A stretch of 47,895 nucleotides of DNA. It comes from Planctomycetota bacterium. GTDB lineage: Bacteria; Planctomycetota; UBA1135; UBA2386. Made by a program: the position numbers and the translations under genes. The notes beneath the pieces were generated by a model. That model searched no databases. It saw only the letters and a program-made list of their open reading frames with translations, and had not been told where the DNA came from. Location: the NCBI GenBank assembly GCA_016795295.1, contig JAEUHP010000091.1, positions 1 through 47,895 of the forward strand, given 5' to 3'. This document shows, one piece after another, positions 7,573 through 44,356 of this stretch (the first letter of the stretch is position 1; each line of letters starts with the position of its first letter).

Positions 7573-7578
<6 letters not shown>

Positions 7579-7649
7579 CCCTGCAGCGGTGACCCTGCAG
7601 CGGTGACCCTGCAGCGGTGACCCTGCAGCGGTGACCCTGCAGCGGTGAC
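7573..7649 (+). repeat. 14-bp tandem array forming a chain of minicistrons after carB
   Basis: The unit CGGTGACCCTGCAG occurs five times without a mismatch (7573-7642), followed by a partial copy CGGTGAC (7643-7649). Each unit contains GTG at 7575, 7589, 7603, 7617 and 7631, which opens GTG-ACC-CTG-CAG-CGG-TGA (peptide MTLQR). That stop overlaps the next GTG by 4 nt (GTGA). The carB stop overlaps the first GTG in the same way. The sixth GTG, at 7645, opens a frame that continues into the transaldolase gene. Each unit also carries a PstI-type palindrome CTGCAG. The repeat structure is directly visible; a relay role is inferred. Confidence 0.9.
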
Positions 7650-7830: not shown

Positions 7831-9117
7831 ATGTACGCGCCCACCACCATGCCCGAGACTCCCCGCCACGATTCCCGTCTCGCCCATGAACTCGCGCAGT
7901 TCTGCCAGCGCCACACCCAGGTCGAGCAGTCGAGCCGCGCGTCGTTTCCCTCGTCGCCGTTGTGGGCCGCCGCCGCAGCCACCGGCACCAGCCTGTGGCT
8001 GGACACCGGCGACGTGGACGCGGCGCGCAAGCTGTGGACCCGGGAGTTCACGGCCCTCACCACCAACAACACGCTGCTCAACAAGGAGGTCCAGAAGGGC
8101 CTCTACGACGCCCTGGTGCCCGACTGCCGGCGGCTCTTGACCGCGCAGGGCGTGACCGACCGCCAGCAGATGGTGCAGGAGATTGCGTTCGTGCTGAATG
8201 CCGTGCACGGCCAGAAGCTGGTGCGCACCTTCGACGCGGACGTGTCCGTGGAGCTGCACACGGCCATCGCCGACGACGCCGAGGCGAGTTACCAGTACGG
8301 CAGGCGCTTCCACGCGATCAACCCGCAGCGCTTCATCGTCAAGGTGCCGCTGACTCCGGCTGGCCTCCTGGCCGCGCGCCGGTTGGCCGACGACGGGGTG
8401 CGCTTGAACTTCACCCTCGGGTTCTCGGCCCGACAGAACTGGTTGATCGCCGCCGTGGCGCGGCCGACCTGGGTGAACGTGTTCATGGGCCGGGTCAATG
8501 CCTTCCTGGCCGACAACCGGCTCGGCGACGGCAAGAACGCCGGGGAGAAGGCGACCTTGGCCAGCCAGCGCCTGCTGCGGCGCTTGGCCAAGGACGGGCC
8601 GCGGGTGCGCCAGATCGGTGCTTCGATGCGCTCTGGCCAGCAGGTCGCCGACCTGCTCGGGCTCGATGTGTTCACCATCCCGACTGCGGCGGCGGCGGAG
8701 TTCGTGCAGGCGAACCCGGCCCCGGGCACCCTGCGCGACCGCACGGGCGACGATCCGACGGTGGTCTTCGCACCGGGCGTCGATCCGCAGCGTCTGCGGC
8801 TCGACTGTTTCTGGCAGGCCGACGCGGCGTTCGGCAAGGCCACCGCGGCGGTGGCGGCTCTCGATCCCCGGAGCCACACCGGCGCCGACGTGGTGCGCAC
8901 TCTGGCCCAGCACGGCGCGGGCGACCTGTTCCCGCAGTTCGACGCAGCGGGGCTGCGCAGGATCGCCGCCGAGGGCAAGATTCCGGTGCTCGGCAGCTGG
9001 CAAGACCGGGTTCAGGCCGGCACGGCCAGCTGGGACGGCTTGCTGACCGCGGCAGCGCTGGCGAGTTTCACCGCCGACCAGGCGGCCCTCGACGCGCGCA
9101 TCGCCGGCCTCCTGTGA
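7831..9117 (+). CDS. Transaldolase family protein
   Basis: Transaldolase transfers dihydroxyacetone units between sugar phosphates in the non-oxidative pentose phosphate pathway. The protein (428 residues from ATG 7831; ATG 7849 is also possible) shows the family barrel motifs in order: LDTGD, TTNNTLLNKE, the Schiff-base strand FIVKVPLTPAG (Lys about 171), LNFTLGFSARQ, RQIGASMRSG and LDVFTIP. At about 420 residues it is longer than the roughly 320-residue TalB enzymes and belongs to a longer family branch. The C-terminal 100 residues are a helical extension ending with a dispersed Ala-rich segment. The frame extends upstream to GTG 7645 inside the carB repeat array. Confidence 0.88.
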   Translation: MYAPTTMPETPRHDSRLAHELAQFCQRHTQVEQSSRASFPSSPLWAAAAATGTSLWLDTGDVDAARKLWTREFTALTTNNTLLNKEVQKGLYDALVPDCRRLLTAQGVTDRQQMVQEIAFVLNAVHGQKLVRTFDADVSVELHTAIADDAEASYQYGRRFHAINPQRFIVKVPLTPAGLLAARRLADDGVRLNFTLGFSARQNWLIAAVARPTWVNVFMGRVNAFLADNRLGDGKNAGEKATLASQRLLRRLAKDGPRVRQIGASMRSGQQVADLLGLDVFTIPTAAAAEFVQANPAPGTLRDRTGDDPTVVFAPGVDPQRLRLDCFWQADAAFGKATAAVAALDPRSHTGADVVRTLAQHGAGDLFPQFDAAGLRRIAAEGKIPVLGSWQDRVQAGTASWDGLLTAAALASFTADQAALDARIAGLL

Positions 9118-15854: not shown

Positions 15855-16556
15855 TCAGTCGACCCGCAACTCGGGAGCGCGCAAGTCGACCTGCCGATCG
15901 CGGAGCTGCAGCAGCCGGTCCAGGTAGGTCGTGCGCGGCAACGGTTGCGCACCGAGCCGCTGCAGGTGCGGCGTGACGAACTGCACGTCGAACAGTTCCA
16001 CGCCGGCCTGGGCCAGCGACCGTACCAACGCCACCAAGGCCACTTTGGACATGTCGGTGCGGCGGTGGAACATGGACTCGGCCGCGAACAGGGCCCCGAC
16101 CTGGACGCCGTAGACGCCGCCGACCAGGGCGGCGTCGTGCCACACCTCCAGACTGTGCGCGCCCCCCGCGGCGTGCAGCGCGGTGTACGCCGTGACCATC
16201 TCGGGCAGGACCCAGGTGCCTTCGGCGCGTTGTCGGCCGCATTCCTCCATCACCACGCGGAAACACTGGTTCCAGGTGAGAGTGAACGCTCCAGCGCGCA
16301 GGACGCGCTGGAGCCGGCGCGGCACGTGCAGGCGGGTCGGGTCGATCACCCCGCGCGGGTCGGGACTCCACCACAGCGGCACCAGGCCTTCGCCGTACCA
16401 CGGGAACACGCCGCTGCGGTAGGCGAGTTGGAGTCGGGCCACCGACAGGTCGCCGCCGAACGCCAGCAGGCCTTCGTGGTCGTATGGGCGTGGGTCGGGG
16501 AACGGCACCACGCGCTGCCGCGGCAGATGCAGAGGCACCGGCCGTGCCCCAGTCAT
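15855..16556 (-). CDS. aat: Leucyl/phenylalanyl-tRNA-protein transferase
   Basis: Aat adds Leu or Phe to proteins with N-terminal Lys or Arg, marking them for ClpS/ClpAP degradation (N-degron pathway). The 233 residues match the family from end to end: FPDPRPYDHEGLLAFGGDLS, GVFPWYGEG, WWSPDPRGV, the core around GTWVLPEMVTAY, ALVGGVYGVQVG, ESMFHRRTDMSK and DVQFVTPHLQRLGA. It is the last gene of a minus-strand series and follows the relE-like coiled-coil gene. Its ATG is the third of three ATGs set 14 nt apart in a tandem repeat, which links it to the upstream stop (see the repeat entry). Confidence 0.95.
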   Translation of the reverse strand: MTGARPVPLHLPRQRVVPFPDPRPYDHEGLLAFGGDLSVARLQLAYRSGVFPWYGEGLVPLWWSPDPRGVIDPTRLHVPRRLQRVLRAGAFTLTWNQCFRVVMEECGRQRAEGTWVLPEMVTAYTALHAAGGAHSLEVWHDAALVGGVYGVQVGALFAAESMFHRRTDMSKVALVALVRSLAQAGVELFDVQFVTPHLQRLGAQPLPRTTYLDRLLQLRDRQVDLRAPELRVD

Positions 16557-16584
16557 CGGGATGGCCTCATCGGGATGGCCTCAT
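16553..16584 (-). repeat. 14-bp duplication forming a two-minicistron ATGA relay into aat
   Basis: On the minus strand ATGAGGCCATCCCG is present twice (16584-16571 and 16570-16557), followed by the aat start ATGA. The upstream gene's TGA (16583-16581) overlaps ATG at 16584. That ATG reads ATG-AGG-CCA-TCC-CGA-TGA (MRPSR), whose stop overlaps ATG at 16570. The second ATG encodes the same MRPSR, whose stop overlaps the aat ATG at 16556. All three junctions are 4-nt ATGA overlaps. The arrangement is directly visible; translational coupling is inferred. Confidence 0.9.
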
Positions 16585-17573
16585 TGGCGCTCTTTCAAAC
16601 GGCGCAACGTGGTGTGCTGGTCCTCGCGGTCGGCGATCTCGAGCACTTCGATGTCGCCGTCGTCGCGCTGGCGGAAGTAGACGCGCAGGCCCAACGAAGC
16701 GCGCAGGCTCCAGGTGTCCTGGCCCCCGAGCTGCTTCACTTCGAGACCCGGGTAGGCGTGGCCCTCGGTGCAGAACAGCAGCACCGCCTGCACGGCGCGT
16801 TCGACCGCCTTGCGCTCCTTGCCGACCAGCGACTTGTAGAACGAGGGCTCGAAGTAGGGCACGCGGAAGCGCCGGTCCGGCTCTGGCTCCGGCGGGGGCG
16901 GGCGGCGGCGACGGCCCTTCGGCAGCAGTGCTTCCAGTTCGGCGGCTTGCTGCTCCAGTTCGCGCATGCGGCTCTGGTTGTGGGCCAACTGGCGCCGCAG
17001 GGCCGCATCCGCCGCCTGCCAGCCATCGCGCTCGGCTTCCAGCTCGTGCAGCCGATGCGCCAGCGCCGCCGTTTCCGGCTCGGCCCGGAGCACCGGCATG
17101 GGCCTCGCACCTTGGGCGCCGCGCGCCAGGTCTTCTTCGGCTGCGGCCAAGCGCCGCGCGAGGTCGGCTTCCCGCTCGCGGGCGCGCTGCGCGGCCTCGC
17201 GCGCGGCTGCCAGGTCGGCGTGCGTGCGGGCCAACTCCGCTTCGCGCAGGGCGAGCAACGCCAGGGTCTCGGCCGGGGCTTCGGCCGCCACCGGGGCAGG
17301 GGGATTCGCGGGCGCCTCGGGCACCAGCAGCGCGAACACCGCGTCCAGCTGTTCCGGATCCCGTAGTTCGGCGAGCAGCGGTGCCAGCACGTGGGCTGGC
17401 GCCTTCTCCAGACGGAAACCACCCTTCGGCGTGAGTCCGAAACGCCGCGCCAGACCGCGCAATGCGGCCACGGGCACCAACCACTCCAGCAGGGACGCCA
17501 ACGGCAACTGGCCGGCACCGGCCAGGACCCGTTCCGTCAGTTTGCGCGGCGGCGGTGGATGGGACTTGGCCAT
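16581..17573 (-). CDS. Coiled-coil protein with C-terminal RelE/ParE-like domain
   Basis: This 330-residue protein has a basic N terminus and a helical region to about residue 80. A long Ala/Glu/Arg-rich heptad-like coiled coil follows (about 95-215), then a basic-Pro linker (KGRRRRPPPPEPEP). The last 90 residues resemble a RelE/ParE toxin fold: helices around FYKSLVGKERKAVERAV, then strands LEVKQLGG, WSLRASLGLRVYFRQ and IEVLEIADREDQHTTL. Stand-alone RelE toxins cleave mRNA on the ribosome, but no antitoxin gene adjoins this one. The coiled coil may serve as a built-in restraint or an oligomerisation arm. Its stop overlaps the first ATG of the relay into aat. The RelE assignment is pattern-based and moderate. 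Confidence 0.6.
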   Translation of the reverse strand: MAKSHPPPPRKLTERVLAGAGQLPLASLLEWLVPVAALRGLARRFGLTPKGGFRLEKAPAHVLAPLLAELRDPEQLDAVFALLVPEAPANPPAPVAAEAPAETLALLALREAELARTHADLAAAREAAQRAREREADLARRLAAAEEDLARGAQGARPMPVLRAEPETAALAHRLHELEAERDGWQAADAALRRQLAHNQSRMRELEQQAAELEALLPKGRRRRPPPPEPEPDRRFRVPYFEPSFYKSLVGKERKAVERAVQAVLLFCTEGHAYPGLEVKQLGGQDTWSLRASLGLRVYFRQRDDGDIEVLEIADREDQHTTLRRLKERQ

Positions 17574-41812: not shown

Positions 41813-42132
41813 GCCGCTGGGTCGATCTGGGCGCCGTCCAAGACCTGAAGTTCACGCCCGGGGCTCCGGTCAAGGTTGGGGACTCGTGGCTGGCGGTGTT
41901 CCGCGTCGGTGCTGGCTACCGCGCCATCGACAACCGCTGCCCCCACGCCAGCGCGCCGTTGTGCGACGGCACCCAGTTCGACGGCAAGGTGGCCTGTTAC
42001 CTGCACTGCTGGGAGTTCGACCTGGAGACCGGCGCCTGCGATGTGGGGCCCGAATGGAACGTCGGCGCCTACGCCGTGCGCGAAGTGGCCGGCCGCCTCG
42101 AAGTCGAGCTGCCTACTCACCCTCCGGCTTGA
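41809..42132 (+). CDS. Rieske [2Fe-2S] ferredoxin-like protein
   Basis: This 107-residue soluble protein consists of one Rieske fold. Ligands are Cys-Pro-His in NRCPHASAPL and Cys-Tyr-Leu-His in VACYLHCWEFDLETG. A Cys replaces the usual Gly after the second His. Small proteins of this type (NirD- or dioxygenase-ferredoxin-like) deliver electrons to oxygenases or nitrite reductases, none of which is nearby. Coupling to trmB through an ATGA overlap may be only organisational. Its last 20 nt overlap the convergent gene on the other strand. Confidence 0.88.
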   Translation: MSRWVDLGAVQDLKFTPGAPVKVGDSWLAVFRVGAGYRAIDNRCPHASAPLCDGTQFDGKVACYLHCWEFDLETGACDVGPEWNVGAYAVREVAGRLEVELPTHPPA

Positions 42133-42643
42133 CCGCCGGCGGGCGCTGCCAGACTGCAGGAGTTGCCCCCTGCAGGAGTTTGCCAGCGGCCGGTTTGCCA
42201 GACACCGGTTTGCCAGACACCGGTTTGCCAGAAGCCGGCGCTTCGAACTGCGGAGCACTGACGAACAGCACCGCGGGCTGCCCGGCTTCGCGCTTTTGGT
42301 TGCGCACCACGAAGCGGCCGTCGCGCAGGGCCCAAATCGGCTCCCCTCGCAAGCCGCGGACCACCTCCACCACGGCATCGCGCAACGCCGCGTCGGGGCA
42401 GGGTTCTTGGGCGGCCAGTTTTTGATCCGCCAGTTTTTGATCCGCCAGTTTTTGATCCGCCAGTTCTTGATCTGCCAGTTCGTCTGCAGCCATCGCCGCG
42501 GACCCGTCGGAAACGACCGGCTCGGACCCACCCACCGGCAGCGTTCCAGGCCCCGGCAGGAACGGATTGCCGCCGAGCCACGCGCCCAGGACGAGCGTCG
42601 TCGCCGAAGCCAAGCACACCTTCGACCGGGTCGGGGTCTGCAT
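42113..42643 (-). CDS. Envelope protein with two pentapeptide-repeat tracts
   Basis: This 176-residue protein has an N-terminal hydrophobic segment (SKVCLASATTLVLGAWLGG) that would serve as signal or anchor. Around residues 55-80 an Ala-Asp-Gln-Lys-Leu type pentapeptide is repeated about five times (ELADQ/KLADQ), probably as a charged helix. A small ordered part (residues about 80-125: ALRDAVVEVVRGLRGEP, GRFVVRNQ) follows. A second tract then repeats Ser-Gly-Lys-Pro-Val about four times, likely unstructured. Each tract is a 15-bp DNA tandem repeat. ATG 42643 is supported by TATCCT 13 nt upstream. Function is unknown. Confidence 0.6.
   Translation of the reverse strand: MQTPTRSKVCLASATTLVLGAWLGGNPFLPGPGTLPVGGSEPVVSDGSAAMAADELADQELADQKLADQKLADQKLAAQEPCPDAALRDAVVEVVRGLRGEPIWALRDGRFVVRNQKREAGQPAVLFVSAPQFEAPASGKPVSGKPVSGKPAAGKLLQGATPAVWQRPPAVKPEGE
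42176..42235 (-). repeat. In-frame 15-bp tandem repeat (SGKPV tract)
   Basis: Four 15-bp units from 42176 to 42235; those at 42191 and 42206 are identical (CGGTTTGCCAGACAC) and the outer two differ at a few bases. They encode the Ser-Gly-Lys-Pro-Val tract of the 42113-42643 gene. A shorter CTGCAGGAGTT duplication (42154, 42170) adjoins. Confidence 0.85.
42414..42480 (-). repeat. In-frame 15-bp tandem repeat (ADQKL tract)
   Basis: GCCAGTTTTTGATCC is present three times exactly (42414, 42429, 42444), a fourth copy with two changes starts at 42459, and a partial fifth at 42474. The unit has T runs that are rare in this GC-rich DNA. It encodes the Leu-Ala-Asp-Gln-Lys tract. Confidence 0.88.
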
Positions 42644-42656
42644 CGGAAGTTGGAGG

Positions 42657-42662
42657 AGGATA
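42657..42662 (-). promoter_or_regulatory. Putative -10 box (TATCCT) of the pentapeptide-repeat gene
   Basis: TATCCT on the minus strand ends 13 nt before ATG 42643. Confidence 0.45.
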
Positions 42663-42835
42663 CGCCGGGAACCCCTGCTGGTGGTCAGGATTTCCTGGCC
42701 TCGATGCCATCGGCGCTGGCCAGGAGCCAGGTTGAGCTCTCGGCACGCCCCTCTGGGAGCCGGGCGGCTTCCCGGCGCCACGGACGAACGTGCGGTAGAC
42801 CGGCACTGGCTCTCGGCACGGCCGGTGCCACCCGC

Positions 42836-42841
42836 TAGCAT
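42836..42841 (+). promoter_or_regulatory. Putative -10 box (TAGCAT) of lysS
   Basis: GCTAGCAT resembles the GCTANNCT boxes of efp and ppa. It lies 30 nt before GTG 42872, so this transcript would have a short leader that includes AAGGATCG, a possible weak ribosome-binding site. Confidence 0.4.
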
Positions 42842-42871
42842 GTTCGCCCCCGAAGCCAGCCAAGGATCGAT

Positions 42872-44356
42872 GTGACCGACGGTATCGCCAAAGACCGCCA
42901 CGAGAAGCTCCAGCACCTGCGCGGCCAGGGCCGCGACCCGTTCCCGCCGCGGGTGCCGCGCGGGCAGCCGATCGCCGGCCTGCTCGCCGACTTCGCCGCG
43001 CGCCAGGGCCAGGTGGTGACGCTGTGCGGCCGCCTCGGCGTGGTCCGCGACTTCGGCAAACTGCGCTTCGCGCACCTCGAAGACCGCAGCGGCAGCATCC
43101 AGGTCGGTTTCCAGCGCGACCGCCTGCCGGAGTTCTGGCCCGACCGCAAGCTGGTCGAGGGCAACGACCTGGTCTCGGTCACGGGCGAACTGGGTCTGAC
43201 CCAGAAGGGCGAACCCACCCTGTGGGCCACCGAAGTCGTGCTCGCCAGCAAGGCGCTGCGGCCGGCCCCCGAGAAGTGGCACGGCCTCACCGACACCGAG
43301 CAGCGCTACCGGATGCGCTACGTCGACCTGTTCGCCAACCGCGACGTGCGCGACGCGTTCGCCAACCGCAGTCGCATCGTGCGCGAAGTGCGCGCCTACT
43401 TCGACAGCCTCGACTACCTGGAAGTCGAAACGCCGATCCTGCAGCCGATCTTTGGCGGCGCCGCGGCGCGGCCGTTCGTCACCCACCACAACACGCTCGA
43501 CATGCAGCTCTACTTGCGCATCGCGCCGGAGCTGTACCTGAAGCGCCTCCTGGTCGGCGGCATGGAGCGGGTCTACGAGATCGGCCGTGTGTTCCGCAAC
43601 GAAGGCATCAGCACCCGGCACAATCCGGAGTTCACGATGCTGGAGAGCTACGAGGCGTGGGCCGACTACCGCGACATCATGGCGCGGGTCGAGGGCCTGT
43701 TCGCGCACCTGTGCGCGAAGGTGCTCGGCGGCCGCAGCACGGTGGAGTTCCGTGGCCACGGCTACGACCTGCAGCCGCCGTTCCAGAAGGCGAAGTACCT
43801 CGATTTGTTCGCCCAGCAGAATCCGGGGGTCGATTGGTTCGACCACGGCAGCGTCACCGCCCGCGCCAAGGAACTTGGCTTGGCAGTGCAGGGCATCGAA
43901 CCGGCCAAGCTGGCCAACGACGTGTTCGAAGCCACGGTCGAAGACACGCTGCGGGGCCCGATCTTCGTCTACGACTATCCGGTGGCGATCAGCCCGCTGG
44001 CCAAGCGGTTGCCCGGCGACCCGCGGGTCACCGAGCGCTTCGAACTGTTCGTGGCCGGCATGGAACTCGGCAACGCCTTCAGCGAACTCAACGACCCCGA
44101 AGACCAGGAGCAGCGTTTTCAGGAGCAGGTGGCCCACAAGGACGAGGAGACGCCCGGCGAAGTCGACCTCGACTACGTGGCGGCCCTGGAGTTCGGCATG
44201 CCGCCGGCCGGCGGGCTCGGCATCGGCATCGACCGGCTGTGCATGCTGCTCGGTGGGCACGACTCGATCCGCGACGTGGTGCTGTTCCCGCTGCTGCGGC
44301 GGCAGCAGATCCAGGCCGACGAAGCCCCTCCTGAGGCCCCGCCGACCGCGCCGTGA
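42872..44356 (+). CDS. lysS: Lysyl-tRNA synthetase, class II
   Basis: This enzyme charges tRNA-Lys. The 494 residues hold an OB-fold anticodon-binding domain (VTLCGRLGVVRDFGKLRFAHL) and the class II catalytic core. Motif 1 is near YLEVETPILQPIFGGAAARPF. Motif 2 is around RVFRNEGISTRHNPEFTMLE. Motif 3 is GGLGIGIDRLCMLLGG. The start is GTG 42872; the ATG two bases earlier is followed directly by a stop. Its stop overlaps the GTG of the first Lol-type permease (GTGA), so synthetase and transporter genes are translationally coupled. Confidence 0.96.
   Translation: MTDGIAKDRHEKLQHLRGQGRDPFPPRVPRGQPIAGLLADFAARQGQVVTLCGRLGVVRDFGKLRFAHLEDRSGSIQVGFQRDRLPEFWPDRKLVEGNDLVSVTGELGLTQKGEPTLWATEVVLASKALRPAPEKWHGLTDTEQRYRMRYVDLFANRDVRDAFANRSRIVREVRAYFDSLDYLEVETPILQPIFGGAAARPFVTHHNTLDMQLYLRIAPELYLKRLLVGGMERVYEIGRVFRNEGISTRHNPEFTMLESYEAWADYRDIMARVEGLFAHLCAKVLGGRSTVEFRGHGYDLQPPFQKAKYLDLFAQQNPGVDWFDHGSVTARAKELGLAVQGIEPAKLANDVFEATVEDTLRGPIFVYDYPVAISPLAKRLPGDPRVTERFELFVAGMELGNAFSELNDPEDQEQRFQEQVAHKDEETPGEVDLDYVAALEFGMPPAGGLGIGIDRLCMLLGGHDSIRDVVLFPLLRRQQIQADEAPPEAPPTAP

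Follow-up and report, generated by a model that had tools for sequence, protein, structure and literature searches.

Background

Translational coupling by termination-reinitiation has been described at gene junctions with ATGA or TGATG overlaps (PMC6728339, PMC10666635). In E. coli and Haloferax, adding 14 nt between coupled genes reduced re-initiation by 40–80%, separations of 22–38 nt nearly abolished it, and coupling required no more of the upstream ORF than its last 15 nt (PMC10666635). Short upstream ORFs can also feed ribosomes into the gene coupled to them (reviewed in PMC12548453); the axe-txe system has a two-codon minigene, which may work via mRNA stability (PMC8708949). In mycobacteria, MIRUs are tandem units located in operon junctions, with small ORFs coupled by a −4 overlap that are thought to lessen the effect of the insertion (PMC12548453), and the units at senX3-regX3 are 77 and 53 bp long (PMC4213456).

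The junction described here, immediately upstream of aat in a planctomycete genome, resembles each of these systems in part. It uses the same standard 4-nt link as ATGA/TGATG junctions (PMC6728339, PMC10666635), for which coupling is expected, but unlike those single junctions it has several links in series, made through five-codon ORFs encoding nothing conserved. With short upstream ORFs and the axe-txe minigene it would share the principle that translating a tiny ORF in cis boosts translation of the gene after it, with frame and distance both mattering; those, however, are single mini-ORFs, whereas the aat chain is made from a tandem repeat. In apparent origin and in look the array corresponds to intergenic minisatellites (VNTRs), although interlocking overlapping ORFs are not expected of ordinary VNTRs. 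As in MIRUs, a −4 overlap links the ORF of each aat unit to the adjoining one (PMC12548453), and the MIRU lengths of 77 and 53 bp are of the form 3n+2, as is the 14 bp of the aat unit (PMC4213456). However, MIRUs form one dispersed, apparently mobile family with units of ~ 50–100 bp and ORFs of ~ 17–25 codons (the latter deduced from unit length), whereas the aat unit of 14 bp (5 codons) is not dispersed and the unit at each relay junction is private to it. On paper, the aat relay would operate in the manner of a MIRU, but it is a smaller, non-mobile analogue.

Two minicistrons between the upstream gene and aat

The window analysed is the whole 47,895-nt stretch of DNA, which belongs to a Planctomycetota MAG (the source genome, G000). 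The features at the junction are as follows:

15855–16556, minus strand: aat, leucyl/phenylalanyl-tRNA--protein transferase, 233 aa (PF03588, TIGR00667)
16553–16584, minus strand: 14-bp tandem array, 2.3 exact copies of ATGAGGCCATCCCG, read from the sequence
16553–16570, minus strand: minicistron 2, MRPSR*, with 4-nt overlaps with minicistron 1 and with the aat start
16567–16584, minus strand: minicistron 1, MRPSR*, with a 4-nt overlap (ATGA) with the stop of the upstream gene, by direct reading
16581–17573, minus strand: upstream gene, putative coiled-coil protein, 330 aa, its TGA stop (16583–16581) lying inside ATGA

On the minus strand, the junction (16584 to 16553) is ATGAGGCCATCCCG ATGAGGCCATCCCG ATGA, in which ATG AGG CCA TCC CGA TGA (MRPSR*) is present twice. 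The first ATGA contains the stop of the upstream gene and the last one contains the start of aat (16556), giving a stop-to-start distance of 24 nt. A unit length of the form 3n+2, together with the ATGA that it carries, turns each copy into a minicistron with 4-nt overlaps to its neighbours, and the resulting three ATGA overlaps in series are of the 4-nt/1-nt kind by which termination-reinitiation coupled pairs are recognised.

Identity of Aat was clear from family searches (PF03588, E = 2.4e-63; TIGR00667, E = 1.3e-55), and the annotated start is supported by the N-terminal length, since the stretch from Met to FPDP has 22 residues, as in relatives. The original prediction of a double MRPSR relay leading into the true aat start was exact in sequence and coordinates. 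The upstream gene precedes aat across the family and has a conserved C-terminus (...LRRLKERQ); it had no significant match in Pfam or NCBIfam, coiled-coil matches remaining below threshold, and its earlier description as RelE-like turned out to be weak, the sole hint being ParE_toxin at E = 0.53. No RNA structure was indicated at the aat junction (fold z = 0.62), which ruled out a hairpin or attenuator role for the array. Neither a promoter nor a terminator was found within it, a single chance-level terminator-like site falling in coding DNA.

The aat insert is private to the source genome

Junctions of aat could be analysed in 24 relatives from the same family, with mostly 56–67% identity in Aat and no same-genus relative in the comparison set. 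Seven of them have a 4-nt overlap, eight a 1-nt overlap, and the remaining nine spacings of −8 to +3. A comparison of array copy number at the 5′ junction of aat, proposed along with the original prediction, found the array absent in 24/24, and among analysable junctions a relay at this position was seen in the source genome only. Four aat junctions with an open gap and no relay come from a different family of the same order. None of the 24 has more than a plain overlap or 3 intervening nt; the source genome is thus alone in carrying the 24-nt insert, and the spacing in relatives establishes that the junction was opened by this distance.

The mutational event was probably a short tandem duplication, of a type frequent near gene ends in this family. 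Such a gap would be costly to a coupled aat, because published insertions of this length nearly abolish re-initiation. Each minicistron, however, comprises 15 sense nt, and with two 15-nt ORFs joined by 4-nt overlaps contact would be restored at every step. A ribosome finishing the upstream gene would start again on minicistron 1 and, after its stop, on minicistron 2, whose stop would in turn deliver it to the aat start; judging from the published distance data, coupling could thereby be preserved over a gap across which re-initiation would otherwise be weakened or lost. The MRPSR peptides presumably have no function of their own. We lean towards this interpretation of the sequence, in which the junction was duplicated and the duplication was tolerated or kept since repeated termination-reinitiation preserves coupling.

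As the original prediction had assumed, 4-nt overlaps are common here, being the most common same-strand spacing in the source genome (90 pairs). In 813 kb of this genome, Shine-Dalgarno (SD)-like motifs preceded overlapping starts more often than in shuffled sequence (51% vs 30%), and no SD enrichment was seen before free-standing genes or starts with gaps. Because 4-nt overlaps dominate and only overlapping starts are SD-enriched, coupling should matter in this organism. Within the ATGAGG of each aat-array unit, GAGG is placed ~ 8 nt ahead of the next ATG and may help re-initiation. The same placement, together with the SD enrichment at overlapping starts, could be taken to mean that the unit is mainly a ribosome-binding site that gives aat its own initiation. 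We consider this improbable, given that free-standing genes show no such enrichment and that the units of other relays (MTAP, HrpB and G000:C71, see below) do not contain GAGG.

If the chain works as proposed, ribosomes in nature would re-initiate three times consecutively through five-codon ORFs, which would explain how an insertion into an operon junction can be tolerated with coupling intact. If it does not work, the locus would be a clean case of ordinary tandem duplication producing a suggestive geometry.

Tandem arrays as a class in the family

In 813 kb of the source genome, 17 exact arrays have a period of 10–30 and 2.28 or more copies, compared with zero in three dinucleotide shuffles; the aat array is thus not a product of chance. 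Exact non-coding arrays in the same 813 kb numbered 21, with periods of mostly 14–18 and a frequent position right after a stop codon. A stop-anchored search that allowed mismatches returned 24 arrays in ~ 1.95 Mb from four genomes (none in shuffles), of which 16 were at convergent ends, where no following gene could receive a relay, according to gene calls made on MAGs with a purpose-written, simple and crude codon-bias caller. Tandem arrays of ~ 13–18 bp are thus typical of this planctomycete family, frequently located at the 3′ ends of genes and in most cases not followed by another gene, and the aat array, a perfect head-to-tail repeat near a gene 3′ end, fits the minisatellites of its lineage. 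Elsewhere in the window, two 15-bp arrays, at 42190–42232 (CCGGTTTGCCAGACA) and at 42403–42481 (GCCAGTTTTTGATCC), share a single intergenic region (42132–42872).

The window also contains a second 14-bp array, which had been likened to the one at aat:

7573–7649, plus strand: GTGACCCTGCAGCG × 5.5, exact 14-bp units, MTLQR* minicistrons, beginning at the carB stop (carB identified by TIGR01369)

This array is real, but its supposed role as a relay into a gene was not borne out, the next ATG being 252 nt past the carB stop. A 62-codon open frame links the last GTG of the array to a transaldolase-like gene downstream; we judged this to be chance and discarded the array as a relay into transaldolase, whose usual start is the ATG at 7831.

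The occurrence of two unrelated 14-bp arrays had been put forward as a sign that their geometry is selected. A wider count did not support this argument, as most stop-anchored arrays are convergent and other periods are common too, so that two arrays of the same period are weak evidence for selection. Four-unit xTGA arrays, tallied from listings in genomes common to all period searches (G000–G020) and including some intragenic ones at period 15, were found in 6 distinct places at period 13, 13 at period 14, 25 at period 15, 9 at period 16 and 8 at period 17. Period 14 was accordingly ruled out as a selected feature, and among arrays overall neither the 14-bp period nor the 3n+2 rule has any advantage. 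In one genome (G011; L135/L147/L146, contigs C17, C37 and C22), 14-bp arrays of GTGAACCCCGTGCG/A were seen at more than one place; xTGA arrays of various periods are unusually abundant in this genome.

These counts favour a neutral explanation, according to which the first copy of a duplication simply keeps the stop and the last copy keeps the start, the minicistrons are an accident of unit length (~ 1 in 3), and Aat starts independently. Arrays are abundant, the stop-anchored ones are mostly convergent, four-unit arrays show no 3n+2 preference across periods 13–17, diverged units also occur in non-relay periods, and the aat insert is private to one genome. We regard this as a serious possibility that nevertheless falls somewhat short of probable, in view of the recurrence of relays at orthologous junctions and of their completion above an internal control, both presented below.

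Both edges of the insert coincide precisely with ATGA, and the spacer GGCCATCCCG is unlike the sequence on either side, as might also be seen with a MIRU-like mobile element, a 14-nt unit inserting at DTGA sites with duplication of TGA. However, a search of the genome with up to 3 mismatches allowed returned no copies of the aat unit beyond the junction, which largely rules out a dispersed element of the MIRU type; in addition, the sequence at each junction is its own, and the MTAP and HrpB units partly match their flanks (by eye). A mobile origin thus appears extremely unlikely. Duplication, which the original prediction had also named as the source, is a natural origin given the frequency of arrays in the family. 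Because the unit resembles neither of its flanks, however, what was duplicated may be a short random spacer and not just the ATGA junction.

Relays at other operon junctions

A period-14 search across genomes identified relays at further junctions, flanking genes that we take to encode MTAP, HrpB and NqrD/NqrE, names given by recognition of the protein sequences without a family search. Ahead of MTAP, genome G013 has a relay of three diverged units (GTGAGCCGACACAG GTGAGCCAACACAG ATGAGCTCGAGTCG ATG...), while a plain ATGA overlap is found in its congener G022 and a 26-nt single link in the source genome. Ahead of HrpB, genome G010 has a relay of diverged units (GTGACCCACCTGCC GTGAGCAACCTGCC ATGAGCACTGGGCC GTG...); this junction is a plain GTGA overlap in 19 genomes and a relay in five (links of 14 × 3, 17 + 26, 14, 14 and 11 nt). 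The plain overlaps of these orthologues represent the state from which the relays started. Recurrence of relays at MTAP and HrpB argues against the neutral explanation.

The NqrD-NqrE junction of the source genome (G000:C71; L130 ~ 1501–1548) displays a 14-nt register with four GTGA and diverged spacers, and its chain is interrupted by CTGA in the second unit before GTGACATGA leads into NqrE, so it is possibly a decaying relay. At another junction of this genome (G000:C53; L172 ~ 2661–2678) an ATGA junction is duplicated with a 17-bp period (ATGACGGCGAGGCAGCG|ATGACGGCG), giving a one-link relay. Relaying is thus not universal among array junctions, and this counts against the coupling interpretation: when chain completion was traced, NqrD-NqrE and G000:C53 both had an interrupted chain. 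Arrays G000:C214 (L239; period 15) and G017:C24 (L252; period 13) have irregular units or flanks, yet complete chains into the next gene. Retention of xTGA amid diverged spacers was considered as proof of selection and dropped, as non-relay arrays look alike; it is uninformative in this respect because the search pattern itself required xTGA.

Purifying selection on coupling probably keeps relays at operon junctions, and expansions that do not relay may be lost more often. More tentatively, and with less confidence than we place in the account of aat itself, short duplications in this family may time and again have opened operon junctions that were repaired or maintained in the form of 3–8-codon minicistron chains, with selection acting on stop-start interlocking alone while the sequence drifts. 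Under this broader reading, the relays would be this family's own, non-mobile equivalent of MIRUs, and they would form a natural series in which re-initiation takes place in several steps. Junctions such as HrpB and MTAP, with 0, 1, 2 or 3 links at one and the same position, provide natural replicates within the family for per-step loss of re-initiation.

Chain completion at same-strand junctions

A relay can start only from an upstream stop of the form xTGA, where x is A, G or T. Junctions with CTGA, TAA or TAG therefore served as an internal control, in which the chain was traced from a non-existent first start (pseudo-chains). This control superseded earlier relay-versus-shuffle tests with loose start sets, in which little excess was seen for single links. 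The chain-completion tests were devised after the cases had been seen. Among same-strand pairs not already directly coupled, chains were complete in 32/145 xTGA junctions and 26/265 control junctions (p = 0.001). With the ascertained loci left out, the difference was 24/124 vs 22/226 (p = 0.013), a ~ 2-fold excess, while the excess was non-significant in unascertained pairs when only minis of up to 20 nt were counted (p = 0.23–0.28).

The claim that geometry is selected was thus partly upheld once confined to operon junctions, where completed relays exceed the internal control, contrary to the neutral explanation, and recur at orthologous junctions with different units. The chain-completion tests lend moderate support to retention by selection on coupling. 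At orthologous open-gap junctions, the rows of which are partly related and not fully independent, chains were complete in 10 of 14 xTGA cases compared to 3 of 19 pseudo-chains (p = 0.003), and in 7/10 vs 3/19 after removal of the ascertained cases (p = 0.011).
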